NCBI RefSeq assembly: GCF_028649655.1
Contig: NZ_JAQSLN010000002.1
Coordinates: 62,001-126,000, forward strand
Length of the DNA stretch: 64,000 bases
Direction of reading: 5' to 3'
From: Halobacteriovorax sp. GB3
Lineage (GTDB): Bacteria; Bdellovibrionota; Bacteriovoracia; Bacteriovoracales; Bacteriovoracaceae
The position numbers and the translations under genes are program-made. Positions 18,152-40,000 of this stretch are shown piece by piece (the first letter of the stretch is position 1; each line of letters begins with the position of its first letter). Under the pieces are notes generated by a model. It searched no databases and had not been told where the DNA came from. It saw nothing but the letters and a program-made list of their open reading frames with translations.

Positions 18152-18250
18152 ACAAAATTTTCCTCATACATTTTAAGTACCTCAATATTATAAAATAAAA
18201 AATAATTGGCTACTGCTAGAAAGGTGAGTAGCAAAATTAAAGAGGTATTT

Positions 18251-19801
18251 ATGAACATCAAAGCGAAGATAATCGCTAACAAAACTTTTGGCCTTTTAGG
18301 CGTAACTTCATTTCTCTTCTCTGGTCTCGTTGTTGGAAACCTAGTTGTTGGTAAAGCAAATTTTGACGGAATGAAAAATGCTTATTCAAAGTTTAGACCT
18401 TGTCATACGAAGGTAGTTCAAAATGCAAAGACTTATTTAGCTGATTCAAAGCTGAAGTCTAAAATTAACCCGACGCAATTTGCTGCAAATTCTAATTGTG
18501 TAAAAAAGGTTACTGGGGAACTTTCAAAAGGCCTAGCCGCTAGTCCTGGAATTGTTTCTGAGTTAAAGAACTATGCCTCTGAAGTAAAAGACCTCATCAA
18601 ATACTCAAATTTCTCAAAAGAAAAAAATAATCAAGTTCACTTTACGAATCAAATTGGAACAGTGGAATTTGCTTTTGAAAGAACTTATAGAATTATTTCA
18701 AATCAATTTTTGAAAGAGAGTGGAGTTTCAAAATACTTAAAATCAGAATATCTCGCTATCTCTGTTGGAATCTTTGTTCTTTCAATCCTAAGCCTCTTTG
18801 GAATGAATTTTTCAGTAAGAAGAGAAGAGAAAATTTCTGAAATTGAAATGAGAGCGAAGGCCATCCTTAATGAAGCTTCAGAATCTGAAAATGATTACTT
18901 GAATGAAGAAGAGGTAAAAGCTCTATTTATCGATATGATGAGCACATTAAAGGCATCAAGTTCAAAAGAGCTATTTGAGAGTTACTTTGATCGAAATGCG
19001 ACAATGAACGCTGTGAAAATGAAATTTGATAAAATTGATTCAATTGCTAAAGCTAAGGAAGAGACAAACTCAGTTCTCGATACATTCCTAGTTGATGATA
19101 GCTATCAAAAAGTAATTAATAGACTTTCAGAGCTTTCATCTGGGATTGAATATCTTGGTAATTTCTCTCAAGAGACTAAAAATTCAGAACAAGCAATTAG
19201 TAAGAAAATGGATATGATCTCAGATCAACTGAAGAATCTTTCTACGAGAATTGATTCAATGGATATGAGTGAAGAGACAAAGTCTGAATTGAAAGAGGCG
19301 GCCACGAAGATCGTTTCTAAGAATCCTGAGAAAGCTGTTTCAAATCCTACTGACCTTGGTTCTGTTCTTGAAGAAGCCGTTGATGATCTTTCATCACTAT
19401 TTTTTGCCGCAGGTGTAACTTGTGACGTCGATGTTAAGGGTGGAATCCACCTCGGGAAATCGACGCAGAAAATTAAAGAAACATTTGAAGATATTCTAAG
19501 AGAGTCATTGAAAAAATCGAAAATGGTTAAGGGGCAGAAGCTTTTAACTATTCGATCTGAAATGGTTGATAAGACACTGTCGATTAAACTTGTTAATAGA
19601 TTGACGAGTGAAGCGGTCGATCATTCGAGAAAAACTCCAGGTAAAACTCACTACTTTAGAGCGAGAGATACTAAGTTTGAATGTAGCAAGGATGCATTCA
19701 GTGATCTAAAAAATGCTAGCGGACAGCTAGTAGGTCATGAGTATAAATATAGTATTCAACTTCTTAAAAAGAAAAAATCACAAGCTAACAGCTCCCTCTA
19801 A
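18251..19801 (+). CDS. Two-TM membrane protein with degenerate histidine-kinase-like C-terminus
   Basis: Not assigned to a named family, but the layout is that of a sensor kinase. TM1 spans about residues 11-33, a periplasmic domain of about 130 residues follows (Cys51 and Cys83 may pair), and TM2 spans about 166-186. A long cytoplasmic helical region (190-360) stands where HAMP/DHp would be. Residues 369-450 read like the link into and start of a HATPase domain (DLGSVLEEAVDDLSSLF, KIKETFEDILRESLKKS). The catalytic marks are missing: no clear phospho-accepting His box, the N-box Asn is replaced, and there is no DxGxG. It may be a pseudokinase acting on the regulator upstream. ATG at 18251 has AAAGAGG before it; a TTG at 18206 is less likely. 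The gene ends exactly at the motB stop. Confidence 0.7.
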   Translation: MNIKAKIIANKTFGLLGVTSFLFSGLVVGNLVVGKANFDGMKNAYSKFRPCHTKVVQNAKTYLADSKLKSKINPTQFAANSNCVKKVTGELSKGLAASPGIVSELKNYASEVKDLIKYSNFSKEKNNQVHFTNQIGTVEFAFERTYRIISNQFLKESGVSKYLKSEYLAISVGIFVLSILSLFGMNFSVRREEKISEIEMRAKAILNEASESENDYLNEEEVKALFIDMMSTLKASSSKELFESYFDRNATMNAVKMKFDKIDSIAKAKEETNSVLDTFLVDDSYQKVINRLSELSSGIEYLGNFSQETKNSEQAISKKMDMISDQLKNLSTRIDSMDMSEETKSELKEAATKIVSKNPEKAVSNPTDLGSVLEEAVDDLSSLFFAAGVTCDVDVKGGIHLGKSTQKIKETFEDILRESLKKSKMVKGQKLLTIRSEMVDKTLSIKLVNRLTSEAVDHSRKTPGKTHYFRARDTKFECSKDAFSDLKNASGQLVGHEYKYSIQLLKKKKSQANSSL

Positions 19802-19813
19802 TTACTTAGAGGG
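19794..19813. other. Stem-loop spanning two abutting stop codons
   Basis: CCCTCTAA (19794-19801) and TTAGAGGG (19806-19813) pair perfectly around TTAC. The hairpin contains the stop codons of the plus-strand kinase-like gene and the minus-strand motB, which meet with no gap. Neither side has a T tract, so it may serve as an mRNA 3'-end stabiliser or Rho-type end rather than a classical terminator. Confidence 0.6.
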
Positions 19814-20602
19814 CGCTGCCTTAGGCTTTATTTCTTCTACATTTGATTGAGCTTTGAAAAGAACACCAAGTCCCATCTGAACTTCTTGTTCTGGCTTATG
19901 TAAGATTCTAAGAACGATTCTTCTGTTCTTTGCTTGATTTTCTTTTATTGGATTTCCATCTTTATCTTCGTTTGGATAAGCAGGCTTTGTCTCTCCATAA
20001 CCAACTGCAACGAGATAATTTCTATCAAAACCATTTGATTCAAACTTTCTTACGATTGTGGAGGCTCTTGCTGCACTTAACTCCCAGTTTGAAGGAAATT
20101 TTCTTGAGTGTATTGGGATATCATCTGTATGCCCTTCTACAAGAATTCTAACATCTTTGTGTGTGGACTTAATTTTATCAATAATAATTTGGACAAACTT
20201 ATCGGCATCAGAGGTTAGAGTTGCTTCACCGAGATCAAAGAACGTTTGAACATTCATAATGACATCAAGACCTTCATCATGCTGAAGGACCTTTGTAACA
20301 TTATCCATATTACTAATCGTTGAGAGTTCTACTGCTAGCTTTGTCATTTTATCTTCTGAGATATCATTATCTCCATGAAAATATTTTGCCATGAGCTCAG
20401 CCTTTCTTTGGAAAGTTGCTGGGTCATAGTTCGCAAAGGCCATCATAAGAATAAAGAAACAAGCAAGTAGAGTCATGAGGTCGGCATAAGACATGAGCCA
20501 TCCTGAATCATCTCCTCCACCACTTTTTTTGGGAACAGATCTTATGACGGGAAGATCGTCCTCAAAGTCTGTATTTTCGATTTCTTCGTTATCATCAACC
20601 AT
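19802..20602 (-). CDS. motB: MotB-like stator protein with OmpA peptidoglycan-binding domain
   Basis: Stator subunit that anchors an ion-driven motor to the cell wall. The cytoplasmic N-terminus (about 33 residues) is followed by one TM helix with the essential ion-binding Asp41 in SYADLMTLLACFFILMM. A plug/linker follows, and from about residue 135 an OmpA-like domain that grips peptidoglycan (VEGHTDDIPI, NWELSAARA, GYGETKP, NRRIVLRI). Length 266 fits MotB/PomB. The start directly follows the motA stop with no gap, so expression is coupled. It is the last gene of the five-gene operon whose other members include a FliF/FliG-like fusion. I therefore suspect it powers that assembly and not only a flagellum, though an ordinary flagellar role cannot be excluded. 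Confidence 0.9.
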   Translation of the reverse strand: MVDDNEEIENTDFEDDLPVIRSVPKKSGGGDDSGWLMSYADLMTLLACFFILMMAFANYDPATFQRKAELMAKYFHGDNDISEDKMTKLAVELSTISNMDNVTKVLQHDEGLDVIMNVQTFFDLGEATLTSDADKFVQIIIDKIKSTHKDVRILVEGHTDDIPIHSRKFPSNWELSAARASTIVRKFESNGFDRNYLVAVGYGETKPAYPNEDKDGNPIKENQAKNRRIVLRILHKPEQEVQMGLGVLFKAQSNVEEIKPKAAPSK

Positions 20603-21391
20603 CTATTTACCCAGTACTTCTTTCCAATCAAGGCGATCAGATGGAAGGAGAAAAGAGTTTAGTCTCTCTGCTAGCACAATTGGACTTGTCTTCTTGATCA
20701 TAAGTCTAAAGCCTTCTAGTACAATCTTATTTTGAAGGTATCGCTCATTAGCAGAGTCCTCTAGGTTTTCACCTACTGGAACAATCATAAGGTTGGCAAT
20801 AATAACCCCATAGAGAGTTGTAATAAGACAAACACCCATGGCCGGACCAATTGTTTTCATTGCATCTTTTCCACCAAGGTTTGCAAGAAGTACAACCATA
20901 CCAATTGTTGTTCCCATCATTCCCATTGCAGGTGGGTATTTACCCATGGCCTGAAATTTTTCCGTGTCTCTCATATAGAGCTCGTGAACGTTTTCAATTC
21001 TCTCATTGAGAATTGTTGTTAGAGATCTTTCGTCGACAATCCCATCTGCATAAAGACTTAGACATTCTTTAAAAAAATGAATATCACATTCTTCAATGAG
21101 TTGTTCTATTGGAGTACCTGTTCGATATTTTTCAGAAGTCTGAATAATTGTTGCAATTGTTTTGGCGTAATTAACCTGACTACCTTTAATAACTCGAGTA
21201 AAGAAAACTTTTAAGAGTTTAAAGAGTACAGGGAGGGGGAAGGAAATAGAGATCGCCGCAACTGTCCCACCAATAACGATAAATAAACTTACTGAATCAT
21301 AGAAGATGATTACATTACTAGTTGAAAGAAATAGTCCTAGAACAAGGACAGTCGTTGCTGCTGCAAATCCAATTAAAGAGTAAAAGTTCAT
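20603..21391 (-). CDS. motA: MotA/PomA-like stator channel protein
   Basis: Forms the ion channel of the stator with MotB. Four TM helices are visible: about residues 1-22, 30-50, then 150-170 and 180-200. The large cytoplasmic loop between them carries the charged residues that push on FliG (RIENVHELYMRDTEKF). The segment YPPAMGMMGTTIGMVVLL and the following TIGPAMGVCLITTLYG are close to PomA-type MotA proteins, which often use sodium. This fits a marine organism, but ion choice is inference. Length 262 is usual. GAAGGA precedes the ATG. An 88-base gap separates it from the upstream beta-barrel gene on the same strand, with no terminator seen. Confidence 0.9.
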   Translation of the reverse strand: MNFYSLIGFAAATTVLVLGLFLSTSNVIIFYDSVSLFIVIGGTVAAISISFPLPVLFKLLKVFFTRVIKGSQVNYAKTIATIIQTSEKYRTGTPIEQLIEECDIHFFKECLSLYADGIVDERSLTTILNERIENVHELYMRDTEKFQAMGKYPPAMGMMGTTIGMVVLLANLGGKDAMKTIGPAMGVCLITTLYGVIIANLMIVPVGENLEDSANERYLQNKIVLEGFRLMIKKTSPIVLAERLNSFLLPSDRLDWKEVLGK

Positions 21392-21479
21392 AGAATCCTT
21401 CTACGAAAATGTTAATATTACCTTTAAATTCTAGGATAAAGTGTAATTGATTGTAAAAAGATAAATAAATGAACTTACA

Positions 21480-22145
21480 TTATAGTGGGAATGTTGCTCC
21501 AAATAGGATTTTGATGTTCATCCCTGAAGAAGAAATTGTACTAATACCATAGGCGTAAGAGAGTCCAGCTTCAAAATTAAGACCCCAAGATTTACCCATT
21601 TGTTTCGTGTAACCCCAGTGTCCACCGAAGTCTATCCCCGTACTCACGGCACTCAGAACCGTACCGAAGCTTACAACTGAAACCCTAGAGAATCCTAGGT
21701 CAACACCATAGTATTTTCTAACTTTAGGAACCATTTTAACCGACTCTTTTTCTCCGATAAAGACTCTTTGAATCCCCGTTCCAGAGTAGTAGTTTCTTGT
21801 TCCAAGACCAAAGTAGTTATAGTGCATCTTACCTGTTGCTGTAGAGAGGGCGATGATTGTTCTGGCGAAGTAAGAGCGCTTAAAGTTATCAAAGATTTCG
21901 ATGTCAGCATCAAAAGATGGCATTACTGAGAAACCACCATTTTCAAGATCACTTGAAGCGTTTGCTTGTCCACCTGTTCCACCTTGATCTCCAGAGCTAC
22001 TGTCTGTAAGAGGGTTGGCATAAGAACCTTGAACCATACCTGTTCTAATCGTAAACTGCATATTATCAAGCTTCGCATGTGCAGCAAAGCTTGAGATGAT
22101 TGCTAAGAAAGCAAAGAGGTATCTAAAATTAAGCTGCTTGTTCAA
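21480..22145 (-). CDS. Probable outer-membrane beta-barrel protein
   Basis: No named family. A signal peptide (ending AAHA) precedes about 195 residues of alternating polar and hydrophobic strands with many Gly, Tyr and Phe (YFARTIIALST, HYNYFGLGTRNYY, YGVDLGFSRVSVV, WGLNFEAGLSYAYG). The last strand runs to the C-terminus (KILFGATFPL). That pattern fits an OM barrel of about 8-10 strands. It overlaps the upstream rotor-like gene. I prefer TTG (complement of 22143-22145), with AGGA eight bases before it, over the ATG at 22154, where the AGG directly abuts the start. Its place between a rotor-like protein and the stator genes suggests it is the outer-membrane part of the same machine. Confidence 0.7.
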   Translation of the reverse strand: MNKQLNFRYLFAFLAIISSFAAHAKLDNMQFTIRTGMVQGSYANPLTDSSSGDQGGTGGQANASSDLENGGFSVMPSFDADIEIFDNFKRSYFARTIIALSTATGKMHYNYFGLGTRNYYSGTGIQRVFIGEKESVKMVPKVRKYYGVDLGFSRVSVVSFGTVLSAVSTGIDFGGHWGYTKQMGKSWGLNFEAGLSYAYGISTISSSGMNIKILFGATFPL

Positions 22146-24096
22146 GTTGCCCATCCTTTTGCACGTACTGCTCGCATAGCTCATCAATTGTCCCTTCAAC
22201 TTCTTCTTGGAGCTGAGCGCTAGATTTAATCAGTTTTCTAGCAAAGCTGATGAAAACGCTATCGATCTTGTCTTTGTTCTTTCTAAGTCTTGCAAGCTGA
22301 AGCTCATCTGTTTCAACGTTACTTAACTCAAGATCAAAGATTTCTCTTTTCTTACTTCCATTTGGAGCGATAATCTCAAGCATCTTCGTTTTAATTTCAT
22401 CATCAGATACTGCGAGGAATTCTACGAGAGTCGCTTGCTTCATCTTAGAGAGAACAACCTTTAAGACTGAATCTGGCAGGTTGAAAATTGCTTTTGCTGG
22501 AAGAAGAGTCTTTAAAAGTTCCTTCATCTTCGCTTTATTTCCATTCATACCAAAGGCCTTGAAGAAATATTCTTCGTTAGCAATATCCATGTGAGGAAGA
22601 ATTTCCATAATCTTATCACTAAATGGTGATTCTTCTTCTGATACTTGGTTTTCTTTAATCTTACTCTGTAGAAGAGCATCGTTTTGCTTCATTTCTTCAG
22701 GAGAGATCTTCATACTTCCTGTTGTAAGTCTTTCGACAACTTCACTATCAAGCTGTGGAATGATTTTTACAATAAATGAGCTCGATAGAGTGTTCATTAA
22801 TAGAGGTCCAAGTTCTGGACTTTCATTAATGATTCTCACACAAGATTCAACATCAAGGCTGTAAAGAAGGCTCTTCGTTTCTTCAGAGATGAGATCTGTT
22901 GGTACAATAATTTCTTCTAGAATCTGCTCATCAACAAAGCGTGCACCTTTTGTCTGGTCGTACTCTTCAGAAGAGCTACTGATAAATCCTCTCCAAGTCT
23001 TTCTTTCTTGAAGTGATAGCTGTTCAAATGTTTGCAGAAGCATTTCTGGCTCAAGCTCTTGAGATAAGAAGATAAGAGCACTTTTCGCTTCTGGAGACTT
23101 AAGGCTGATCCACTTTTTAAGTAGAGTTGCCGCTTCAGACTTACTTTCGTTGAAATATCTTTCAAATCGTTGAACAGATGAACTCGAGTCTGCTCCAGCA
23201 GTTGTTGACATTCCTTGGAAGTCTCCAGGGGAACCAGCTCCGGCACTAGCTGTGCCTTCTGATTTAGATTCCGCAACTTCAACTTCTTGTGATCCTCCAC
23301 CTTGCTCAGATGATGCTTGGGCCATAACGGCTACTTCTTTATTACTTTCAATCACGGCTTCTGTTTGGCTTCTCGATAATTTTGAATATCTAGAGAAGAG
23401 AAACATCACAACTAAACTCATAAAGAGAGTAGCGATTAAAAAGCCTAGAGAAGTTGAGTATTTTGCTCCAAGTTCAAGTAGCTCTGGAACAGTGTAGTCT
23501 TTAAGTGTTTTTTCTTGCGGTGGTATAACAACCACTTTTTCTTTGAATTTAGCTGTTGCGAAAGTCATTGTCGGAGTGACTTCTGCATTGAAGCTTAGCT
23601 TTTTAAGAATTGTTTGAATATTGGCCACAACATCTTTCTCTAGAAGTTCATCGAGAAGTACTGTGATTTTAACACTTCTTAGTTTCTCGTATGGAGCTTC
23701 TTCAAGTTTTGTAATGACTGTCTTTTGCTTTGGATTCATATCCTTTGCAATTTTATCAATAGGAACTTCAATCCCAAGCTTATGAAAGAGGAGGTAGTCC
23801 TTTTTAGCGATCTTATCATCAGTTAGGTCAAAACCTTCACTGTTTGATGCGACCGTTCTTTCTTGCTTCGGTTGAACAACCTTAGGTTTAACAACTTGTG
23901 TGTCGATTTTGACATCTAGAATATACTGATCTTTGTTAATCAATACAGCTAGAGCATTATCGATTTTTGTCTTGATTTGATTTTCAAGTGATTGCCTGTC
24001 AAATTTCACTGTTGAAAGCGAATAGATGTTTTGAGCAAAAAGCGTAAAAAACAAAACAAGAAAAAGTTTAAATGTGTTGTTAGTACTTTTCTTCAT
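22129..24096 (-). CDS. FliF-like periplasmic/TM segment fused to FliG-like rotor domain
   Basis: A 655-residue fusion that mirrors the flagellar MS-ring/C-ring junction. Residues 1-26 are a signal peptide or first TM helix. Residues 36-68 (SLENQIKTKIDNALAVL, then YILDVKIDTQV) and 138-185 (KLRSVKITVLLDELLE, NIQTILKKL) resemble the split ring-building domain RBM3 of FliF. A TM helix covers 213-236, then a Ser/Gly-rich linker (240-308). The cytoplasmic part follows FliG order: N-domain (EAATLLKKW to LSLQERKTW, 320-368), middle domain (about 405-470, with NESPELG where FliG has EHPQ), and C-domain (about 530-625, LVEFLAVSDDEIKTKMLEII, which would face MotA). RBM1 and RBM2 of FliF are absent. Its ATG overlaps the upstream TAA by one base. 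Homology is judged by eye. Confidence 0.7.
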   Translation of the reverse strand: MKKSTNNTFKLFLVLFFTLFAQNIYSLSTVKFDRQSLENQIKTKIDNALAVLINKDQYILDVKIDTQVVKPKVVQPKQERTVASNSEGFDLTDDKIAKKDYLLFHKLGIEVPIDKIAKDMNPKQKTVITKLEEAPYEKLRSVKITVLLDELLEKDVVANIQTILKKLSFNAEVTPTMTFATAKFKEKVVVIPPQEKTLKDYTVPELLELGAKYSTSLGFLIATLFMSLVVMFLFSRYSKLSRSQTEAVIESNKEVAVMAQASSEQGGGSQEVEVAESKSEGTASAGAGSPGDFQGMSTTAGADSSSSVQRFERYFNESKSEAATLLKKWISLKSPEAKSALIFLSQELEPEMLLQTFEQLSLQERKTWRGFISSSSEEYDQTKGARFVDEQILEEIIVPTDLISEETKSLLYSLDVESCVRIINESPELGPLLMNTLSSSFIVKIIPQLDSEVVERLTTGSMKISPEEMKQNDALLQSKIKENQVSEEESPFSDKIMEILPHMDIANEEYFFKAFGMNGNKAKMKELLKTLLPAKAIFNLPDSVLKVVLSKMKQATLVEFLAVSDDEIKTKMLEIIAPNGSKKREIFDLELSNVETDELQLARLRKNKDKIDSVFISFARKLIKSSAQLQEEVEGTIDELCEQYVQKDGQLEQAA

Positions 24097-24692
24097 TACT
24101 TACCCGACTTAGTTTTCTCGATGATTAATTTTTTCATCTTCAGTACAAATGCGTTATCTGTATTTTTACTATAAGCAAGATTAAATGCTTCTAGTGATTT
24201 CTTAAATTTACTTTGAAGGTAGTAGATACTTCCTTCTAATTCATTTGGAACAGAAAGTTCTGGAAAATCTTTTTTGATTGTTGCCGTAATTTTCAGGGCC
24301 TCTTCAAAACTCTTTGTTCTAATAAGACGTTGAACTTCAAATAGTTGATTGGAGAGCTCATCATATTTTCTAGCGTTATCGAGTTTATCTTCTGGCTTTA
24401 GGTTCATCTGAACTTCAATATCAACTGCCTCTGTTTCAGCGAGTAATACTGAACTCTTTTTGTAGCCTTCTTTTTGAAGATCAATATAGAGTGGACCATC
24501 TTTAATCTTTTTCTTTTCAAGGTCATCACTATTTATCGTAAGGGGAGTGACTCCCATTTCCTCATAACTTTTTGTCCCCATCGAGCGAACATAAATCTTC
24601 GCTCCTGCAGGTTCTGTTGTGACCTTAATTGAAGTCGAGCTTGAGCACGAGGCCAATAAAATCATTGATAGTAATAAAAAGTATGTTTTCAA
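24096..24692 (-). CDS. PEGA-domain/TPR lipoprotein
   Basis: Envelope lipoprotein. The leader ends in a lipobox LLASC (Cys16), and Ser after the Cys suggests outer-membrane sorting. Residues 20-95 look like a PEGA domain: IKVTTEPAGAKIYVR, then GVTPLTIN and YIDLQKEGYKKSS, a small beta fold common in cell-surface proteins. Residues 105-195 are paired helices of TPR type (FEEALKITATIKKDFPEL, FKKSLEAFNLAYSKNTDNAF), suitable for protein contacts. As first gene of the operon it is one-base coupled to the FliF/FliG-like fusion. A TPR/PEGA lipoprotein beside an OM barrel and a stator recalls the envelope parts of the myxobacterial gliding machine, though I claim no sequence homology to those proteins. 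Confidence 0.78.
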   Translation of the reverse strand: MKTYFLLLSMILLASCSSSTSIKVTTEPAGAKIYVRSMGTKSYEEMGVTPLTINSDDLEKKKIKDGPLYIDLQKEGYKKSSVLLAETEAVDIEVQMNLKPEDKLDNARKYDELSNQLFEVQRLIRTKSFEEALKITATIKKDFPELSVPNELEGSIYYLQSKFKKSLEAFNLAYSKNTDNAFVLKMKKLIIEKTKSGK

Positions 24693-25073
24693 AATATAAA
24701 CTCCTTATATTTTTCTTTCTCATACGCTTATTCGGTGATCGAAAAAAAAATGTTGGTTTTATTACACATTTTTAAGTTAGTGGAATTTTTTGCCTCTCAA
24801 GGTTTCTTGAGTATTAAAAGACAACTTTATAAAGAGGTATTTTTTTTAGGAATCTTCAATATTGGTTAATAGTTTGGAACTAATTTAAAAAAATTGAGTA
24901 AAAAGCCATGCTTTTGTGGCGGAAATAATTAAGTAATTTTGGTTTATGCCGATAAGTAGATGTAATAACTGCCGGATAGAGAAGAATTGTGAATTTATAT
25001 TATCATTATTGAGTCGCATAACGTTAAGAACGAAAGAAATAACAACTTAAAGAAAGACGTATTTGGATTGCAC
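24693..25073. promoter_or_regulatory. 381-base divergent intergenic region
   Basis: AT-rich control region between the motor-like operon and the giant lipoprotein gene. It contains a hairpin CTCAAG-GTTT-CTTGAG (24796-24811) and a weaker GCCA/TGGC stem (24905-24920). Toward the plus strand there is a sigma-28-like promoter, listed separately. No coding potential, RNA gene or riboswitch consensus is visible. A leader of about 110 bases precedes the giant gene. Confidence 0.6.
24929..24955 (+). promoter_or_regulatory. Sigma-28 (FliA)-type promoter candidate
   Basis: GCCGATAA at 24948-24955 matches the FliA -10 consensus at all 8 bases. Exactly 11 bases upstream lies TTAAGTAA (24929-24936), matching the -35 consensus TAAAGTTT at 5 of 8 including the central AAGT. 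The 8-11-8 layout is that of flagellar class 3 promoters. It reads into the 6112-residue lipoprotein gene about 118 bases downstream. Confidence 0.65.
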
Positions 25074-28000
25074 ATGAAACTATTAAAGTTAATTTTGTTA
25101 AGTTCAGTCTTAGTTTTCTTTACCGCCTGTATGGGTGCGGGGAATACTGAGTTAGAGCAAGCAACATTTGGATTGAAGCTAACTGTCCTTTCCGGTGATG
25201 GCCAGGTTCTAGAAGATCCATCATCACTAGCTGACGAGGTAGTCGTTAAATTAACGAACGCTTCAGACGATAGTCCTGTTGCTAACGCCAGTATTTCTTT
25301 CGTTCTGGAAAATGCAGATTCAGGTGCAAAAGTTTTAACGACTTCAGCTATTACAAGTAGTGCTGGTATTGCAAAAACTAAAGTTGTGGGTGCAGATGAC
25401 TTTGGTAAGAAAGCAATCATTAGAGTACTTGCAACAGGTACAGGATTAGAAGAAGTTGTTGTTGTTTCTATTCGTAATAAAATTATTCCAACTAAGATTG
25501 CAATCTTAGACCCTCCTGCCAATGTTGTTGCAGGGATCCCATTTGACCTTCAGTTAAGACTCGTTGATGACAACGGGAGAGTCTCAGAAGAGCCGGACTT
25601 CAACACAGAGATCTCTGTGGACTTCAGTTCTATTTCTGGAAATATTAGTGATTCATCGCGATTCAATAAGACGAATCCTGCTGATCGTATTGTTAAGTTT
25701 GTTGAAGGTGTAGGGGTTTTAACTGCCGTTACTTATACAACAGCAGAAGATTTAACAATTACTTTAAGAGATCACGGGAAGATTCCTGAGCTTGAGGCGA
25801 TTACTCAAAGGGCAATGAATATCTCTGAAGTTAAGACGATGAGAATTGTACCTTCGAGTCCAACTCGTATGCAACTTGACGACCCAACTGACGGGACAAC
25901 TGATGACACTATTGCTGTTGTCGGTAAACTTTATGACCAATATGATAACTTTGCTTACAACTACTCTAATGCTTGTCAGGCGCGTTATACAGTTGCTGGT
26001 GATAATTTAAATCAAGCATGGATTGTAGATTCAGCAGATCCAAGTGCTAGAAACCAGACTGGTATTGCAACATTTAATGGTGGTCGTGGACAAGTAAATG
26101 TTAAAGATACTAATGTTGAAACAGTAACAATCACAATTAATAATGTAACTCTTGGTTGTGGTGGATTATCTAACTATGGTACTGCGCAAGATGTTCGATT
26201 TGATGTTGGACAAGTTGCAAAAATTGAAATTCGAGCACCTGTTCCTGATACCAAGAGGACAACTGAGGAAATTTCACTATTACTAGAGGCCACCGATGCG
26301 GGTGGTAACTTTGTTTCTTCATACAATGGAAAAGTTGGTATCGAATTTGATCCGGCTTGTTCGGCCACAATTAACATTGCTGATCACGACGGTACGAATA
26401 AAGCTAGCTTAAATCTTGGTACTAAAACAGTACGAGTATCAAACACAAATCTTGATAGAAAACCTACTGAAGAATGTACTGTTTCGTTATCCTCAACAAC
26501 TGATACGACGGGTATCGATTTAACATCTTCGCAAAAGATTTACTTCACTCCTGGTCTTCCTAAGCAATTCGCTTTCGTTCAAACGAATTATACAGGTGAA
26601 GTTGGATGGGGAACACTTGCTTCTCAAAGAAATCCTACAACTATTGATGTAGAGGTTCTTGATACTTATGGAAACCCTGTCACAACATATAGTGGTGGTG
26701 GTGTTGATATTGAATCAGATGGAACAACTGAAATTTCAACAACAGATGCAGACGGATCAACAAACCCTAAAACGATTTCTATTGCGGCCAATGGTAAAGG
26801 AACGGCGACTGTTTGGGGTCTGAAGAATGAAACAGTAACTCTAAAGTTTACAAATGGTCCTGCTGGAATGAGATTTACAACGGGTAACTCTGAAAACGTC
26901 CCTGTTGATAATTTAGGTAATTCAACTTCTAGTTTATATTTCAAGTGGGGTATCCCAAGTTATATTGAAATCGTTGAGCCAACAGATGGTAGTGTTGATG
27001 CTGCAATTCCTTTGACTATTACGGCATACGACTACGGTGGGAACCAAGTTAACGACTATGGAACTGCTGGAACACCTATTTCTGAAATTCAAGTTGTTGC
27101 AGATAGTGGTACTGCTGTTTTTGATGGCCCAGTTAGTTTTGTTGGTGGTCAATCAACTGTTAATGTATCTAATACAGTTGAAGAAACGGTTAATCTTTCT
27201 CTTAATTTTAGATCAGGTGTAACTTCATACAAGAACTCTAAAGGTCAAGACATCAATATTACTGATGCCGTTAAGGCCAATAAAGATGTGTATTTTAAAT
27301 GGGGTACTGTTGGAAGAAAATTTGTTATCACTGATCCGCCAGATACGAATGTTGATACATTCGCGCGTTTAAGAGTTCAGGTTGTTGACCAATTTAACAA
27401 CCCTGTTCGTGATTATGGATGTGGTGGAGACACTCAAGATGTTGCTATTGCTGTTAACGGTACTGCTCGTTTAAGTCAGGCTTCGACAACAAATCATACT
27501 GATGATCCAACTTATACAGCACTTTCTCAGACCGAATTTGTAGATATCAAACTACAAACGGGAAGTTGTCCAATCACTAATACTACAAGTGATGCCTCTT
27601 ATGGAGATGTATTCCTCTTTAATAGAAGTATTGCACCTTTTGGAAGCGACTTTCAAACTGTCGGTGTGACTATGAGTGATTCTGATGGAACAGGTTACAG
27701 TTTAACTCCTACTGGAGGGGTTATCTCAGTTAACTTCGCTCCTGGAACGCATACGACTTATAATATTTTAGATAGTGTTGGTACTGTTGATGCTCCAATT
27801 AGAGTACCTGTTCAAGCTGTTGACCAATTTGGAAACCTTGCCGTTACTTATGTTGAAAATGATGCTGTTACTTTTAGATGGGTTGATCAAAAGAATGCAG
27901 ATATTAATTTAGATGCAGATAATAATCCAACGACAACAGCTGATAATAGAGCTTCAGGTGATCTTTTTGTAGACTTCCTCTCTGGTGATAGAGGAGAAGG

Positions 28001-31000
28001 TTATATTTATTTAAGTGATACAGTTTCTGAATCGATTACAGTCGGTCTCGAACTTAAGTCTGGATATACAACGTCAAAAACAGCGACAATTCTATTTAAT
28101 TCTGGTGTTGTTACTAACTTTGCGATTGTTCCACCAAGTGACCCATCAACAATTACAACTGATGATAAGGTCCTTTTTAATATCAGAGCTCTTGATCAGT
28201 ATGGAAATATAAATACATCATATGAAGATGATATTAAAGTCTCTGTAAACAAAAGTGCAGGTATTCTAACAAATCCAACTGAGACTGATCCAACGAACTT
28301 TACAACTGTTACGAATCGTGTTGTCGATATTTCTTCTGGTGTTGGGACAATTTATGTTTATGATCCAGTAAAAGAAACAGTAACAATGTCTATGATCGAT
28401 GAGCTGGGAAGAACTCTTACTCTTCCATCAATTGACGTGGACTTCTTACATGGTCAACCTGTAACAGCTAATATTGCACAAGTTGATTCTACTCAATTCA
28501 ATTATCCGTCGCTAATTTCATCTAATGTTAATGCTGATACTCCTGGTCTTGTTACTGTTGAAATTCGAGATCAAAATGGAAACATTGCAGATACTTTTAC
28601 TGATGATGTGAATCTTGTTATTAGAAGTGGGAATGCTGAACTCGTTGCTTCAGCACCGGCGCAAAATGATATTCCAAATACTGGTCTCAATCAAACGAGA
28701 AGAGTAAATATCTCAAGTGGTGTGGGAACATTATATGTGAATTCAAGAGCTGTAGGAGCTGTTACTCTACATCTTGACGATTCTATTGCATCCACAGGGC
28801 TTACGATGGTTCCATCATCTGTGGACACTCCAATTACCCTCAATGTTCAACACGGAACTGCAGAAAGATTTGGAATCTATCTTCCAACTGATATTCCAAT
28901 GACACCAGGGCAATTAGGAACTCTTCCATCAGGTGTTTATACTGGAAATACGGATAACGACGTTGTTGTTGCTGTTAATGTTTATGACCACTATCACAAC
29001 TTAGCGACTAGCTTTGGTGGAGATGTTACTTTAACTGTTGATAAAAACGCAATTATTGATAGTACTTCTATTCCCGTTTCTTCGAATTACGTTGATACGA
29101 AAAATGTTAAGTTAACTATGGTTAACGGAACAGCTGTCTTTGATATCTATGACTATCAAGTTGAAAATAGTGTCTCAGTAACTCTTAGTGGAAGCTTAGG
29201 GACAAATGCTGGAAATTTAGACACTAGTCATGCTCGTCTTATCAACTTTACATTTGGTGCTCCAAGCTACTTTGCTATTGTTAAGCCAGGAGTGGATGCT
29301 ATTGTAGATAATCCTTCTTCAATTAATGTAGAAGTTCGCGACCAAAGACACAACGTTATTACTAGTGGATTTCAGGGAAGCGTTGACTTTACTGTTGATG
29401 GAAGTGCCTTTTTAAATGACGCTTCTGATATCAATCCAACGACTGGGCTAGTGGCCAGTCCAATGAAAACAAGAACAATTACATTTGGACCAACGAGTAC
29501 AGGTGTTGAATCAATCAATGTTTACGATAGAACATCTGAAACAGTTACATTTTCACTTTCAAATGGTTCTGAGACAGCTCCAGGGACGAACTCTCTTGCT
29601 GTTGTTGATGCCAAAAACCCTGCAGAGCTTAAAAATCAATACTTCGCTCCAGGTGCAGAGAAAGATTTTCAAATTCAGACTCCGGCAACTATTGATGGAG
29701 ACGGAAATCATGTGACTGCTGATAACTCTCTTGTTATCGAAGTAAGGGCATTTGATAAGTATGGTAACTTTAAAAATGATTTAACTGCCGCAGATCTTAT
29801 TCAACTTCAGCTTTCTCTAAGTGGTAGAGTTGTTGGAGCTGATGACATTACTCCGATTGCAGATGATAAAATTGATTTTGGTGGTAGCTTCCCACAAGGT
29901 GTTGGTCGAATTAAAATTCGTGACACAGTAGCAGAGACAATTGATCTCACTCTTGCAGACCACCTCGGTCGTGGATATACAGGAAATACTGTTCAGGTTA
30001 AAGTTCGTCACGGTAATGCTTACGACTTCATAATTTCAAATGCTCTCGGGTCAAATGATTCTGGAACAAACCCAACACTTGCAACAAGAGCAGATGTTGA
30101 AATTGATGTTGAAGTTACGGCACGTGATGCTTTCCAAAACACTGTTGAAAACTTTGCTGGAAAAGCGAACTTAGCTTTTATTTCTGGTACAGCAGGAGCT
30201 TCATTCCCATCTGGACAGACAATCTCTACTTGGACAAATGGTGTAGGGCAAATTGCATTTACAAAAACTGTCGTTGGAGATGTAACTGTTGAAGTTCAAG
30301 ATCACGTAGATGCTCCAACGATGCTTAATACTGATCCATCTGCGCAAAGAACGATTACAATTGTTCACGGTCTTCCTAATAAATTTGCTTTCTTAGCTCC
30401 AACTCCTCCAATTCGTGCAGGTGAGGAAATCGCGGTTACAATTGAAGCGCAAGATGTTCACGGTAACAAAGCATTAAGCTATGGTGGAGCAGGTAAAGAT
30501 GTTCAAGTTGAATATCGAAATGGGGTTGGTACGATTAAAGATGGTGCCAGCTTTGTAAGTGGGCCATTAACTTATGAATTAAGTGCTGGTAGTGCAACAG
30601 TAATCCTTAAGAAAGAGGCCTTTGCTGCAACTTCATATCCAAATACAGATGAAACAATCCAATTAGGTTTCCTTACTGCTAGTGATGGGTCGATGGATGT
30701 TACGGATACTGAAAGTATTACGTTCACTCCAAATGATCCTGTTGAACTTATCGTTGTCGTCGATCCAACTCTAAATACTGAAGGAGCGGGACCATTTTCA
30801 ATTGATTCAGATGTGTCTGTTAGACTTGAAGCTAGAGATGCCTATGGTAACTTTAATGACGAGTATACAGGAACAGTTAATTTTACATCGAATAAAGACT
30901 CATGGATTTATCAAGACTCTGTATCTTGGGCGAGCCAAAATAGAACAATTCAATCTGAGAATATCTCCATCACTGGTGGAGCAAAGATTGTTAAAGTTGC

Positions 31001-34000
31001 CGATCTAACTGCTGAAACTTCAGTAACTCTAGGACTCAATACTCCTGTAGGTGGTTCAATTTCTACCTTAACACCAGCACAAATCGATTTCATGCACGGT
31101 GTAGGTACTACTTATAATATCATTTTTGTTGCTCAGCCTGCTGCTACGACTCCGACATTTACAACGGATAAGCAAAGAGGTGTTCAGCTTCAAGTACTAG
31201 ACCAAGGTGGAAACATCGTTCTTAATCATGCGACTCACGATGTTCGTATGACTCACAATGGTGTCGATGCTAACTTTACTGGTGATGATGGAGCTGATGA
31301 AGGTAAGGTTAGTGTAACTAATGGTACGGCAGATTTTTTCTTTGATAGTAGAAGAACAGGTAATATCACTCTAGGTATTGACCCTGCTCTTTATGATTCA
31401 AGCTTATCACTTGCAACAAGACAAGTTAAAATTGATCCAGGTACAGTAAGTACTCTTGCTATCGTTGCCCCAGCTTCAACTACTGCGGATACTCTTCTTA
31501 TTTCGGACAATACATACACACAACCTGCTTGTGGCGCCGCTGTCCCAGGTGCAGCTCCATGTCCAAAGCCAACAGATATCTTAAGAGTTGAGCCAAGAGA
31601 TAAGTACGGTAACGTTAATAATATCGAAGGTGCAGGGAAAACGTATGACGTGACTCTGAAGGCCATTGATACAGCGACACTTCAAGAAAGATGGAGTGAG
31701 AACGTTAAAATTACTGAGGGAAAAACTTATCTTAATGATGGTGTGACTCTCTTTAATCAACAATTAATTAGAGCAGAGAATGTTAGATTTACACTATCTG
31801 CACCTACACCTTCTTCACAATTAGATGAAGACGGAAACACTGTTAATATCGATGTAACATCAAATCCAACTGCGACGATTAATCCAGGTGTTCCTGCTAA
31901 AATTTGGATTGTTCAGCCAACAAATAACTCGATTGATAATCCAATTGAAGTAACTGTTGAAGTTCAAGATGGTCACGATATTGATGGAAACGGAAATGGT
32001 AACCTTGTTCCAACCGCTCCTGATTATGCCGTTGACTTTACTCTAAGTTCAGCTTCTGGCCTTCCTGTTTGGAATGGAAAAGGGACTAATGATCCAAGAG
32101 ATAGTGATACAACAGATACTATTTCTGGGGATACAATTACAATTAAAAAAGGTGTTGGTGTTTTCAACCTCGAGTCTACGAGAGCTGAAAGTGTTGATAT
32201 TGGTCTAACTGCAGCTCCAGGTGGAGTTCCAAGTCGTCTTAATGATGGTGACTCTAATGTATTCTTCGGAGTTTCTGGACAAACAAAGACTGTTGTCTTC
32301 TCTCCAGGTATTCCAAATAATTATAAAATCTCTCCTCCAGCGAATGGAACTCTTTATGATGCAGCGGAAGGAGATGAACTTAAGAGATTTAACTTTGAAG
32401 TTAAGGCCTACGATAGAGGTGGTAACTTTAAGAACACTGTTAATGGTTCCGTTATTGTTGATGCCTCTATTGCAGATGGAACTGTTACTCTTTATAACTC
32501 TGATGAATCACAAAGTGGAACAGGTTCACTCATTATTAATCTTGTTAATGGGGTTGGTAATGTTAAATTTACAACGACTAAAAGTGGTACGGTAGCTCTA
32601 TCTTTAAGAAAAGATGAAGTAACTCCTGACCCTGTCGGTATTGATGTTGATTCTACATCATTTAACGTAACAGTTTCTCCTGGTCCTGTAACAGTTATTG
32701 CTCTTGATGATCCTGTTGATATTCGAACAACGACATCAAACTCAATGGCAGATGTTAGTGATAATACGAAAATGAGTACGACTTCTGTTGTTGCAAGAGC
32801 TTATGATACATTTGGTAACTTCAATAACGCATTTACAGGTTCTGTTTTAACACTTGCTAGTGACTCAGCAAATATGGAAATGATTAAGGTTGTCGATTCT
32901 ACGGCATCAACAGACCTTTCATTTAGTAATGGTCAGGCGTCACTACTTGTTAGAAATAAAACAGCTGAAACAGTTAATCTAACTCTTAACGATACGTATA
33001 ATCAGTTTTCTGGAGTCAATATAACGGCAACTCAAAACGTTGTCTTTTCTCCTGGTCCTGTTTCACAAGTATCTCTTGAAGTTCCTGCTTCTTCAGAAGC
33101 TCCGGGGACAACTCTTCTAGACACAGATGGAAATGAAACATTTACTGTTAGATTAAGAGATATTTATGGAAACCCTAATACTGATGCTACAGAGGGTACT
33201 CTTACTAACGAACTGAATCTTTCTTTAACACTAGAAACTAATTCTACAGGGGACTTCGATAGTTCTCCAGGAATGACGACCAAAGTACAAAGTTTCTCTA
33301 ATGGTGTTGGAACATTTACGGTTCAATTAAGAAAATTTGGTAATGATCGCTATGATGCAGCTTCTATTAGTAATCTTGGTCGTGAATCTGGGATGGAGCA
33401 CATTACAGTTAATATTGATTCATCAGCGAGCTCACTAGCTAATTATAATAATATAGCTTCGAGAAAAATTTATTTTAAAAATGGTGGAGCTAATTTTATT
33501 ACACTTGATGATCCAGATCCACTTGCTGATAAAACAATCGATGATACGGTTACTGTTAGATTAAAGGCAAGAGACCTTTATGGTAACTTAGATATTGGAC
33601 ATGGAACGCCACCAATTAATACAGTAAACCTCACTGTTGATGGTAATGCTATTATTAATGGATCTTCGAATTCAGAAATGATTGCTATTACAAATGGTGT
33701 TGGTACAGCAACTGTTACTAACACTGTTGCTGAAACAGTAAACCTTAATCTTGGAGCAGGAAGTGAACCAATTAGTGGAACTCCGCTAGCACCACCTGTT
33801 TCAACTGATTATTCTAGAACTCAAGACTTACTCTTTAGCCCAGGTGCTGTAACATCCTTTGCATTTGCTGCGAGTAAGCAAACATCAGGTTCTATTGTAA
33901 GTAGTGCAAATGTTGGAACTGTAACAAACGACTCTACTCCAGAGAGAATTACTGTTGATAATGCGGCTGAATTCTATCTCTACGCCATTGACCAAGGTGG

Positions 34001-37000
34001 AAACATTGTTCCAACTTTCAATGAGAATGATCGTATTTCAATTTCAGCGAATAAAGGTGCAACAGTTAACACTGCAGAATCAACTTATGGTGATTTCATT
34101 GCAGGTGAAAGTAAGGTAACAGTTAGCCATACGGTTGATGAAGTTGTTAGGCTGACAATCAACAAGTTAAATGGAGCAGACTCATCTGTTACGACAAATA
34201 ATATCGACATTGATTTTGATCACGGTCTAACGAGCACATTCGCTTGGAACGTCCCGACTGGTCTTACTGTTGACAATGTTGCTAACGTTGTCGTTCAAGC
34301 TCAGGATCAATATGGAAACAATAATGATAACTATGCAGGACAACTAACTTTTAGTGGTGCTGAAGCTGTAAATGATCCACTTATTATTAGAGAACCTTAT
34401 ATTTCTAGTGATGCTAATGATACTGACCCAAGTGATAATTCTCACTTACAACAAGCGGGTGGTTATCAAGCAACAATGTCAGGTGGTTCACTAACATTAA
34501 ATCTGATGGCCTTAAGGTCTACTCAGTACAATTTAAATATTGATGCTGCTGATGAAACTTCTGATAGTAATGGTTCGCTAAGTCGTCCATCGACCACGAT
34601 TGCCTATCAGCCTGGTTTTCCTATCAATTTCGAGATCTATGAGATCACTGATGGTTCTTATAGTCCTTACACATCTTCTGGAACAATAAATATCATTAGA
34701 GCAAGTGATGGTAGTACACTAAATACAGATAAATTTGCTCGAATTGGTATCCAAGCACTAGATAGAGGTGGAAATAGATCTCTTGGTTATACTCAACCAA
34801 ATGCTCTTAGCTTAACTTCTTCTCCAAACACAAATGTTGACTTCATTCTTCCGGGTGGAGCGACATGGAATGCAGGTGGTGGCAATGGACAGTCTTCGAT
34901 TATCCTCGGATTCTTAGATGGAACAGGTGTTGTTGAAGCTGAGATGAGAAGTAAGGATGACAGTACATTCAGCCTTAGCCTTGGAAGTCTTGTAACAGGT
35001 ACTGAGAAAAATGCTGGAAATAAGCAGATTACTTTTGCCCCTGGTCAGTTTAGACAAGTAGCATTTCCTGGATCGAATGTTTCAACGGTTAAGGCCGATG
35101 CGACATTCCCTCTAAATATTGAAGCACGAGATAACTTTAATAACCTCGCAACTGATTATACGGGATTTGTTAGAGTTGGACTTGAAACGAGTCCGGGAAC
35201 AATTGTTTTCCCTGGAGATGCGGGATTCCCTGCTGACGTTGTTTTCCCTGCCGGAGATGGTGGACGCGAAAATGGTGTTATTGAAATTGTAAATGGTGTC
35301 GGTAGTTTGGCAGGATTTGAAGGTCATACTGCTGGTGATGTTGTCAAACTTGTTATCGTTGAAGATACTTTTGATTTTGATCAAAGTGGTGGAATTGGTC
35401 CAACAACATTTTCTCATAGTGTTACTGTAACAGCAGGGGATCCTGCAAGTATCGTTTATGCTTCAACAATTAATGATGTTGTCGTTGATAACGATGCTAG
35501 TTTCACTTTAAACGTTGTCGATACTTATGGAAACCTATGTAACACGACAAACGGAACAATTGATGTTCATGTTAATGGTGCTACTTATGGTGTCTCTCAA
35601 AAAACTATTTCAACTGCACCTGTTACTGGGTCTTCGGGAGCATCAACTTCTCCTTCTCCTGGGAATAGTGTTTCATTTACAAATGGTACAGGAACTTACA
35701 ATATTCACTCGCAAAGAGCTGATACTGTAACTGTTACGATTTCTAATCCAACAATTGCTGGTTTCTCTCCGGTTATTCCAACTCCAACGAGAAACTTTAC
35801 GTTCTTACCGGATACTGCTCAAGTTATTAACTTTGTTCAGTCTGATTACGAAACTGATGCAACTCCTGGTAATGAAAAGGTTGGTGTTGACCATGCAATC
35901 TATTTAGCGGCCACTGACCAATTTGGTAACATTGCTAATCACAATGGTTCTGTAACGATAGTTGCTGCTGCTCCTGCAAATATGGACCTTGCAGCTCCTG
36001 GTACTGTGACATTTACTAACGGGCGTGCAACTCAAAATATTCGATCTTCAATTACGCATACTGCGAACTTAAGCCTTACTGCTAGTGGAGGTTTAACGGC
36101 AACTGATACCTATAGTGTGACTTTCACTCCAGGTGATCCACACCATATGGCCTTTGGAAACACTGTTTCCGATGTTGTTGTTGGTAACTCTACAAGTGTT
36201 ATCTTAAGAGTTGAAGATGAGTTTAATAACTTATGTACTCAAACTTCTGGAAACGTAGAGCTTGTTATTGATGCTCAGGCAACATTAGACTCTAACGTAA
36301 AAATCGGTGGTTCAGGTGGGACGGCAAGTGCTTCTGCTCCAACTGGTAATACTACCGCTCTAACAAATGGTACAGTAACTCTATCTCTCTATTCTGAGAA
36401 ATCGGATATTGTTAACCTTAGTATGAAAAATGCAAGTTTCACTCTTGCTGGATCTACTCCGTATCCGTCGAGTGTAAATTTTAATTTCTTACCAGGTAAC
36501 CCTGTAGATATTAAATTTAAAGCAGCTGATTATGCGACAAGTAGAACAAGTGGTTCGACTGTCGCTGGTACGGCTTATTCAATCTATCTCGTTGCTCGTG
36601 ACCAGTATCAGAACACTGCTAACTTTAATGGTACCGTTGCACTTAACTCTAACCATACGATGGACTTGGCGGCTAACGGGACTGTGACGTTCACAAATGG
36701 GCGTGGTACACAAGATGTTAACTCATCTGTTATGAACCACTCTGTCTCTCTTTCACTTGGAGCTGTCTCTGGAGCGGGAAGTGCTTCAATTACAGACCTT
36801 GCAGAAACATTTGCCCTTGATATCGATCACGGCGCTGTAGATCACTTCGAATTTACAATGACACCGAGAGGTGGTGGTGGAAACTACACAATTGATGAGG
36901 TTATTGGTTATACAATTGATGCCGTTGATGTTTACGGTAACTTAAATAATGATTTCAATGGATCTGTAAATGTTCAGTCGACTCAAAACTCAGCTGTTCA

Positions 37001-40000
37001 AAATCCATGGATCAGTGGTTCTCCAACGACTTTCTTGGCCTCAGGTCAAAACCTCACACTGTCTGGTGGTACTTATAATTTAAGTGTTGAAACAGTTAAC
37101 TCTGGACCACTAACACTTAGAATTCAAAGTGCATCTGCTGGGACAATTGGTCAAACAGCTTCAACGACAATTGATCCAGGTGCGATTACATTCTTTAGAG
37201 TTATTGAGCCAAATGTTGGTAAGGTTTCAAACCCAGCTAATACGGACTTAAAAGTTGCAATTGATATTGAAGCTCTCGATAGAGGGTATAACAGAATTAC
37301 AAACTTTACTTCTGGTGTCGCCATTGGACAGTTGCAAGTTCAGTCTGTTGCTACTTCAGATATCACTCAAACTGATATTACAACGTCATCAACTTATTCT
37401 GATGAGAATACGCCATACGAACAATCAATGGATATCATTTCATTCACAAATGGTCTCTCTAAGGCATACATTAAATCTAAGGCGGTTGCTCAGTATGACA
37501 TCAATTTAAATGTTACTCTTGGTGGAACATCTCTTTATGATGGTGCGAAGAGAATTGAATTTGAACCAGGTGGAACGAGTAAGATTATCTTCTCATCTGC
37601 TCCAACACAAAATAGAGCGGATTTAACTTTTAACGTTACTCTTCAAGCACAAGATGCTTTTGGAAACGCGACTCCTGATTTTACTGGGAAAGTGAAGCTG
37701 AAGCAATCTTCTGGTACTGGCTGTACGATCCCGAACGATACAGTTGATTTTGTTTCAGGATCTTATACATTTACAGGTGCTGAAGCCATTCAATGTACTG
37801 TTGCTGGAGATATTCAGCTTGGTGTTGAAAATGGATTTGGTACAACTGTCTCTGATATGACAGCTGTTGCTCCAATTTCAATTAAGCACGGGCAGACAAA
37901 CTTACAATTTTTCTTATACCCAATTACTGACACTCAAGTTAGTAATAGTACGGAAAAAGATGTAACAATAGAGCTTCGTGACCAATACGGTAACTTCGCT
38001 AATACAATGGCCTCAAGTTATGATGTTAACTTAACGGCTGCTAGTGATGACAACGCTCAAATCTATATTGATTCAAGTTCGATGTCTTCAGGAACAAGAC
38101 TTGTAACACTACCTGCTTTAAATGGTAAAGCTGTTCTCAAAATGAGATCGACAAAGGCCATGGCCGCAACTCTGAATCTTTCAGATGCCGGAACGGGATT
38201 CCCTAGAAATCCATCAGCGGGTAGAAGTTTTAACTTCACGCCAGGTGTTGCTTCTAAACTTAGATATCAAACGGCCTCACTGACTCAGCAAACGACTGAT
38301 TCATTTGCACTAGAGATTCACGCACTTGATGAATTTGATAACGTTGCTCCAACTTTTGGAACATCTGTTACTGTTCAAGCAAGTGATAATACAGATCTCG
38401 CTGTAGGATCAACTGGTCTTGTGGCCATGAGTAGTGGTAAGGGAACAGTTAATATTCAAAGAACATCACCTACAAGTGGTTCTCCTGTAACGTTCTCTCT
38501 CGTTGGTCCTGCTGGAATTGATGTGACAACTTCATTTGTTCTTACTGTTTTAGCTGGTCCTCCAAGTAAAGTTAGAATCGAAGACTTAACGACTCCGGTT
38601 GGAAGTAGAAATGTTGACCACCCAGGTATTCCAGTTAACGTGACTCTTGTTGACCAGTATGACAACCCAACTCTTCCTTCAAGTGGAAGTGTTAATGTCA
38701 CAATGAGTGTAAACTCTGGTCCAAATGCTGTTTGGAATGACTCGGCCATTGCTGATACGGTTGTTACGTGGACAAGTGCAACTCCAGAAACACAAACGAG
38801 ACAGATTACTTCTCAACAAGTTGGAAATGCAAATATTGGATTTACTTCGGCAACTCCAAGTTCTATTGATATTACACATAATATTTTCTTGAACTTCGCT
38901 CACGGTGCAGCTTCTCAATATGTCTTTGGAACCCTTCCAACAAACCCTGGAACGGACCAAACGGCAGTAGTAAATGTTAGACTTGCTGACCAGTACGGAA
39001 ATACATGTACTTCAGAGAGTTCTAAGAGTGTAACTTTAAACGGAACAAGTGTTGGTGGTATTGCCGGTACAATTTCAGGAACGGGAATTTCCACTCAATT
39101 CGCTTCTGGTGTCGCTGGATTTAATGTTAAGTCAGCAACAAGACAAGATATTCAACTTTCTGTTGTTGATAGTTCTGGAGACGGTCATGCCATACCTGCG
39201 AATCAAACGATTAACTTTGTTTGGGGAGCTCCATTTAAAATTGCTTGGAAAACTCTACCAACACCTGTTCAAGTTGGAAACGTATGGACGGTTGAAGCTC
39301 AAATTGAGGATTCAAACTCAAACGTTCTTCTTGAATATAGTGGTAGTGTAAACCTTGCGACTTCATTTGCTGGTGCAACTCAGCCTGATGGAAGCACTCC
39401 ACCAGATCCTACTGGTGGTGGAACTGTTGCCTTCTCAAGTGGTGTAGCCGCTTGGAACCTTTCTGGTAATGGTGCCGGTAACTTAACGCTGACAGCTTCT
39501 AAAGCTTCAGGTGATGGAAGTCCAGGAAATGCAAATGGTGTTATGGTTGTTGAACCAGCTTCACCATCTAAAATCTTTATTGCTCCTCCGGGAAGTTCTG
39601 GGATTATTTCTCAAGCAACGACTGTTCAGACGATTCTTCTTGATTCATTTGGTAACGAGTCGAAATACAACGGAACAATCACTTTTGATGTTAGAGCATC
39701 TCAGTCTCAAACTCCTACAGCAAGTGATGGTTATCATGATGTTGCAACGAACCCAACATCTCGTGCAATTACATTTACAAATGAGTCTCAAGCGACTTTT
39801 AAAATTAGAAAGACAACTCACGGTTACGTTAACGTTTATGTACCTTCTCCTCCGGGTGGAATGAGTATGCAAAATTCTAACGGAATCGATTTCCACTTCC
39901 AGCCGGGTGATCCAGTTGAGTATGCTCTTGAGCTACCTGCAAAACCAGCAGATGCTCTTTTCCACTCGACAGTATCGAGTGGAGATAGAGATGCTGCCCA

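Follow-up and report, generated by a model that had tools for sequence, protein, structure and literature searches.

Could the rotor and stator of a flagellar motor serve as an engine of their own, apart from the flagellum? This question is raised by five minus-strand genes at positions 24692-19802 of a 64,000-nucleotide stretch of Halobacteriovorax sp. GB3 (the window, positions 62001-126000 of contig C2 in a genome of 3.62 Mb). In order, they encode a PEGA/TPR protein, a FliF-FliG fusion protein, an outer-membrane protein, MotA and MotB; below, L, G and C with a number denote a locus, a genome and a contig. An initial annotation of the sequence had described a tight operon of five envelope genes with no rod, hook, export or C-ring genes near it. 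The gene junctions were indeed found to overlap or abut, the sole exception being an 88-base gap between the genes of the outer-membrane protein and MotA. Moreover, neither FliF, FlhA or FliM/N genes nor homologues of the genome's own rod, hook and fliF-operon proteins were found in the window. We consider it probable that this module is an ion-driven rotary machine in the cell envelope, complete in itself, made of flagellar-motor parts and separate from the flagellum. To the initial annotation, the analysis adds a FliF C-terminal motif, conservation across the phylum, a second genomic copy and a neighbouring giant lipoprotein.

The fusion protein of 655 amino acids (aa) gave nothing useful as a single sequence in searches of Pfam, NCBIfam or PDB. 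Most comparisons were made with a profile of 32 family sequences against diverse profiles of FliF (41 sequences) and FliG (62 sequences); diverse sets were needed because profiles of low diversity gave weak hhalign results, and all hhalign E-values refer to single comparisons. The first periplasmic half aligned with alpha1-beta1 of FliF RBM3 (E 1.5e-3) and the second, in order and weakly, with beta2-alpha2-beta3. The full collinear alignment from RBM3 through the second FliF transmembrane helix (TM2) to the C-terminal tail reached E 4.9e-4, and residues 308-339 alone matched the FliF C-tail at E 1.7e-4. None of 149 column-shuffled controls reached any of the scores of the FliF comparisons, reversed controls scored lower, and nine unrelated real profiles all fell below them. 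In the AlphaFold model, the two RBM halves were formed by residues 29-66 (alpha-beta) and 139-182 (beta-alpha-beta) around a disordered loop (68-136), and were followed by a helix at 203-261 containing the transmembrane segment and an all-helical cytoplasmic domain at 304-645. When the periplasmic domain was modelled alone, the predicted local distance difference test score of its core was 83-87. FliF took the first three places among its PDB matches, and FliF RBM3 entries recurred many times among the first 50; the E-values were modest (best 6.5e-3). RBM3, TM2 and the C-terminal FliG-binding motif of FliF were all found, and the RBM3-like halves seen in the initial annotation are borne out by hhalign and by the PDB matches of the isolated domain. 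The lack of RBM1 and RBM2 noted there also holds, since only a signal helix precedes RBM3; FliF TM1, RBM1, RBM2 and the long beta-collar insertion were not present in the 655-aa sequence or its model.

The cytoplasmic region was matched to FliG by several routes. The family profile searched against the whole PDB returned FliG as its first and second match (E 1.8e-5 and 0.057), the nine best Foldseek matches of the whole model were all FliG, and hhalign gave a collinear alignment of 206 columns running from FliG-M as far as the torque helix (E 2.7e-6). FliG_M and FliG_C domains were found in this way, and FliG_N was seen in the window member only through the span of the Foldseek match. By the hhalign alignment, residues 582 and 590 have the same spacing as the basic and acidic residues R281 and D289 of FliG; the first was basic in 78% and the second acidic in 32 of 32 sequences. 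MgtE_N was matched by 20 of the 32 members, but it was not adopted as the identity, since FliG ranks first in all PDB comparisons and the FliG cut-offs are passed by the HD100-type member described below. The FliG region proposed earlier is therefore upheld by profile, by Foldseek and, for the HD100-type member, by Pfam, and the comparisons then suggested, by AlphaFold, Foldseek and profile, yielded matches to both FliF and FliG. The collinear profile alignments give the chain order FliF(RBM3-TM2-tail)-FliG, which makes membrane ring and torque ring one protein. The same order is kept by flagellar fliF and fliG, which adjoin in the GB3 genome, and the fusion gene may have been born from the joining of such a pair. 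Sequence and model thus give good support for reading the 655-aa protein as a natural fusion of FliF and FliG.

The two stator genes encode the PomA-like MotA and the MotB with an intact ion-binding aspartate that had been recognized earlier. MotA matched MotA_ExbB (E 1e-17) and most closely the MotP/PomA models (E 1e-38), and MotB matched MotB_plug (E 2.5e-13) and OmpA (E 2.4e-16), both proteins scoring over the Pfam cut-offs. Asp41 of MotB lies in the sequence S-Y-A-D41-L-M, so that a PomA/MotA-like A subunit is paired with a B subunit carrying the transmembrane aspartate, plug and OmpA domain of flagellar-type stators. R90 of MotA was kept in 86% of 59 module MotAs, and in E. coli these FliG and MotA residues form the charge pairs through which stator and rotor are coupled (PMC12505986). 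The retained charges of the torque helix and MotA thus support torque transfer without proving it. The module MotAs, including the HD100 one, grouped in a clade that excluded flagellar MotA (support 0.93). At L223 (G097) and L224 (G068), MotAB of the module type were present but no fusion gene was detected; those of L224 are flanked by giant lipoproteins.

The distribution of the module was surveyed in 129 genomes of the order and in a phylum sample of 369 genomes, where fusion relatives were detected in 44 and 70, respectively. In 52 of 54 loci, the PEGA and fusion genes shared a strand, and PEGA was mostly the gene immediately preceding the fusion, 0-16 bp away. Within 10 kb of the fusion gene, a homologue of the outer-membrane barrel was found in 40 and MotA plus MotB in 35 of the 54 loci, all five genes being present in 26. 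The contiguous gene order of the window recurred in other families (L209, L210, L211, L213, L217, and L219). This recurrence, which answers the search for synteny across Bdellovibrionota suggested in the initial annotation, rules out a chance grouping of the five genes. Furthermore, MotA of the module type (>200 bits) was present in all 44 fusion genomes of the order compared with 2 of the 85 others (Fisher p 2e-32, relatedness ignored).

GB3 itself has a second fusion copy on contig C4. The paralogous module there (L042:9890-16825 and L043:1992-10945, at C4:129-150 kb) comprises fusion, PEGA, barrel and its own MotAB, along with two further conserved proteins and several giant fn3-type lipoproteins. 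A soluble FliG-like relative of the fusion (355-370 aa), having neither RBM3 nor a transmembrane segment, was observed at L225:8794-9861 (G084) and also in G099 and G100, near module MotAB and barrel genes. For the fusion homologues G145:C1:2741389-2743233 and G147:C1:2549678-2551525, the search output marked one in-frame TAG, although an intact 616-aa fusion frame was read in L251.

Bdellovibrio-like genomes carry a divergent fusion of 575-584 aa beside PEGA and MotAB. This HD100-type protein scored over the Pfam cut-offs for FliG_C and FliG_M, and its FliG_N match, which overlaps FliG_M, reached 25.5 bits against a cut-off of 25. A single-sequence phmmer search of PDB retrieved FliG at E 6e-12. 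With hhalign, FliG N-M-C was matched at E 6e-14 over FliG residues 9-310, FliF at E 4e-5 and the family of the window at E 6.6e-10. In G132, some 10 kb separate the PurF gene and the module MotB, and three MotA-sized candidates occupy positions fitting the three published stator pairs. In B. bacteriovorus, bd3009 encodes amidophosphoribosyltransferase (PMC12546842), and motB2 and motA2 are bd3020 and bd3021 (PMC11323537), which is consistent with the arrangement in G132. G132 is the probable HD100 genome, the module stator is very probably MotA2B2 (Bd3021/Bd3020), and the fusion gene would lie between bd3009 and bd3020. Halobacteriovorax marinus SJ, by contrast with the three pairs of HD100, is reported to have one motAB pair (PMC11323537). 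In the Bdellovibrio-like genomes, a gene for a HAMP-SpoIIE phosphatase (L249:7173-8924) is oriented convergently to the fusion gene and may encode a regulator of the module.

The initial annotation had named two ways for its proposal to fail. Lack of profile matches to FliF or FliG is excluded by the comparisons above; the other was that the window might hold the only fliG and motAB genes of the organism and simply the flagellar motor. GB3 was found to have a separate fliE-F-G-H-I cluster, with its single FliF at C2:305 kb, another MotAB at L048, and FlhA and FliM/N on contig C3 only. Because a separate fliF-fliG cluster and MotAB exist, the module is not the flagellar motor of GB3, and the reading as a sole or decayed flagellar locus was rejected. 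Moreover, G067 (94% complete) contained two modules with intact fusion genes, each with PEGA and MotAB, while FliF, FlhA, FliM/N and FliG_N were not found in this genome or in its congeners G065, G066, and G068. G067 is unlikely to be contaminated, since one of its two module MotAs branches as sister to the MotA of the congener G068. Three short stand-alone FliG_C proteins (136-141 aa, over the Pfam cut-off) were also noted in GB3, at L045:9225-9650, L046:9595-10014, and L047:8886-9296.

The remaining two module proteins are predicted to reach the outer membrane. The PEGA domain was matched at E 8e-4, slightly below the Pfam cut-off. The outer-membrane sorting assigned earlier to this PEGA/TPR lipoprotein stands for GB3 and for many distant families, and it does not extend to most members in Bacteriovoracales, which have an ordinary signal peptide. 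The next but one gene product had no Pfam or NCBIfam match and is predicted to be a barrel from its signal peptide and C-terminus. Divergent from the operon, the window encodes a lipoprotein of 6114 aa. The locus with the fusion protein and MotA closest to those of the window, L052, has an orthologue of this lipoprotein (4049 bits) in the corresponding position. Open frames of at least 900 aa lay near 39 of 57 module loci compared with 1 of 7 control regions, and some of these giants had fn3, Big_1 or laminin-G domains. The giant lipoproteins beside the module are thus candidate surface partners. For the bitopic protein convergent with the operon, the sole homologue found among the module loci was again in L052 and in the equivalent position (E 1e-18). 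Protein families of 500-650 aa that contain membrane helices were also observed beside the module in 10 loci (e.g., L042:13259-14926 and L054:11889-13844), one of them with a weak PAS match. The features of the window are collected in Table 1.

Table 1. Genes of the module, parts of the fusion protein, and adjacent genes in the window.
Feature	Position	Strand	Basis or remark
PEGA/TPR outer-membrane lipoprotein, 198 aa, lipobox LASC-S	24096..24692	-	PEGA match and position
FliF-FliG fusion protein, 655 aa	22129..24096	-	signal peptide, RBM3, transmembrane helix, FliF C-tail, FliG
RBM3 first half, alpha-beta, residues 29-66	23899..24012	-	hhalign and domain model
RBM3 second half, beta-alpha-beta, residues 139-182	23551..23682	-	hhalign (weak alone) and model
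Single transmembrane helix, residues about 208-240, FliF TM2 equivalent	23377..23475	-	model, collinear FliF alignment
FliF C-terminal FliG-binding motif, residues 308-339, vERFxxxLxxxPxEAxxLiKkWI	23080..23175	-	hhalign
FliG middle and C-terminal domains, residues 391-606	22279..22926	-	hhalign, Foldseek
Torque-helix equivalent, residues 582-596	22309..22353	-	basic 582, acidic 590
Predicted outer-membrane barrel, up to 239 aa	21480..22199	-	start uncertain, overlaps fusion gene
MotA, PomA/MotP-like stator subunit, 262 aa	20603..21391	-	MotA_ExbB, MotP/PomA models
MotB, plug and OmpA-like peptidoglycan-binding domain, 266 aa	19802..20602	-	MotB_plug, OmpA
Giant repeat lipoprotein, 6114 aa, putative surface partner	25068..43412	+	divergent from operon
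Bitopic membrane protein, 531 aa, possible partner	18206..19801	+	convergent with operon

How might such a machine work? The RBM3 domains would assemble a periplasmic ring, and MotAB, fixed to the cell wall, would push the FliG torque helix, with MotA R90 acting against the acidic residue 590, so that the ring turns. The module has no export gate, rod or hook, so torque would have no path other than into the periplasm and outer membrane; there, the PEGA/TPR lipoprotein and the barrel would be its natural receivers and carry it onward. At the outer membrane it would move or rotate surface structures, most likely the neighbouring giant repeat lipoproteins. With FliM/FliN also missing, the module can serve neither secretion nor the building of a filament. 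It is likely to be used for surface movement or for active adhesion, and in the predator GB3 perhaps on prey. Rotation is what these parts suggest; the output could be gliding, adhesin movement or another.

Other explanations of the same genes were weighed. The module could be an accessory of the flagellum, which it would supply with additional stator units and perhaps with a further ring, the fusion protein recruiting or tuning the stators. Different stator types can mix in one motor, and MotA2B2 of HD100, which lies in the module, is reported to aid swimming (Morehouse 2011, as cited in PMC11323537 and PMC12827227); this published role is the chief argument for an accessory stator. However, G067 has two complete modules and none of the flagellar genes sought, module and flagellar MotA belong to different clades, the module brings a FliG of its own, and 85 of the 129 order genomes lack the fusion though 118 have FliF; we regard this explanation as decidedly unlikely. 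An envelope energiser, working on the outer membrane or wall through conformational change in the manner of Tol-Pal or Ton and without net rotation, is unlikely as well. In that case, the ion flow of MotAB would drive constriction, surface export or remodelling at prey contact. Envelope-tethering systems, too, typically have wall binding of the OmpA type, an outer-membrane barrel and a PEGA/TPR lipoprotein; the patchy occurrence of the module means that it is no core cell-division system. Yet the MotA is of the PomA/MotP type and not of the TolQ/ExbB type, and the charges of the torque helix and the ring-building RBM are kept. A decaying flagellar duplicate, that is, a partial fliF-fliG and motAB copy kept by chance, would account for the shared gene order, but it is highly improbable given the open frames, conserved residues, operon order across families, co-inheritance with the stator and intact MotB residues.

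Within the reading as a stand-alone rotary machine, and not excluding it, the module could strictly be the gliding motor of Bdellovibrionota. A 2026 review (PMC13104615) describes the gliding machinery of this phylum as unidentified and names the motor, the adhesins and the way force is transmitted as a major challenge still to be met. Known gliders are analogous in layout, with a motor, outer-membrane parts and giant surface proteins. On the other side, HD100 has four Agl-Glt-like clusters, one of them upregulated at the phase of gliding exit from prey (PMC12546842, PMC3169522), and the fusion is missing in the 85 order genomes mentioned above. Gliding in HD100 is usually attributed to Agl-Glt clusters, and given these we hold the gliding assignment to be possible and rather doubtful.

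Several points weigh against the stand-alone rotary machine that we prefer. The individual tests for FliF RBM3 are modest (E 1e-3 to 6.5e-3). The equivalence of the MotA and FliG charges rests on alignments. The linkage to giant lipoproteins is partial and its control small, and the non-flagellate case with intact fusion genes is one genome. In addition, all three HD100 stator pairs have been read as flagellar stators aiding swimming, as far as the sources cited above for Morehouse 2011 report.

If the stand-alone machine is real, the flagellar motor has been reused as an engine that keeps rotor and stator and drops export, rod, hook and filament. To our knowledge, a FliF-FliG rotor is otherwise found only inside flagella. 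The parts named in the initial annotation were borne out, and its suggestion of novelty agrees with the literature searched, in which no description of the five-gene module was found. We further propose, tentatively and with a little less than even confidence, a new class of rotary machine throughout Bdellovibrionota, in which a fused rotor with its own stator turns outer-membrane or surface proteins for surface motility or prey engagement, and which in B. bacteriovorus has long been counted among three flagellar stator pairs. A one-chain rotor should be simpler to purify and image, and in HD100 the module amounts to a short, genetically tractable list of genes which suggests that MotA2B2 be re-examined.

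Among known systems, myxobacterial Agl-Glt likewise places the parts of an ion-driven motor at the inner membrane, wall and outer membrane. Its stator B subunits are of the ExbD/TolR type (PMC3169522) and no FliF/FliG rotor has been described for it, whereas the module has a plug/OmpA MotB and a FliG torque helix. Judged on this B subunit, the module differs from a system of AglR, two ExbD/TolR partners and Glt proteins; homologues of the last were not searched for. The GldLM motor of Bacteroidota, with the type 9 secretion system (T9SS) and SprB, is similar by analogy as a rotary inner-membrane motor that moves giant surface repeat proteins, but GldLM resembles MotAB without being homologous to it (PMC13104615), and no T9SS role is proposed for the module. 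Tol-Pal and ExbBD-TonB also energise the outer membrane with an ion-driven A/B pair, while here the A subunit resembles PomA/MotP and is accompanied by a rotor ring protein. The closest relative is the flagellar motor, with which the module shares RBM3, FliF TM2 and C-tail, the FliG domains, a PomA-like MotA, a plug/OmpA MotB and the order of fliF before fliG. It departs from that motor in joining FliF and FliG in one chain without TM1, RBM1 or RBM2, in lacking at its locus the export gate, rod, hook, filament and C-ring (FliM/FliN) of a bacterial flagellum, in being present in a non-flagellate genome, and in adding a PEGA lipoprotein, an outer-membrane barrel and a giant lipoprotein.

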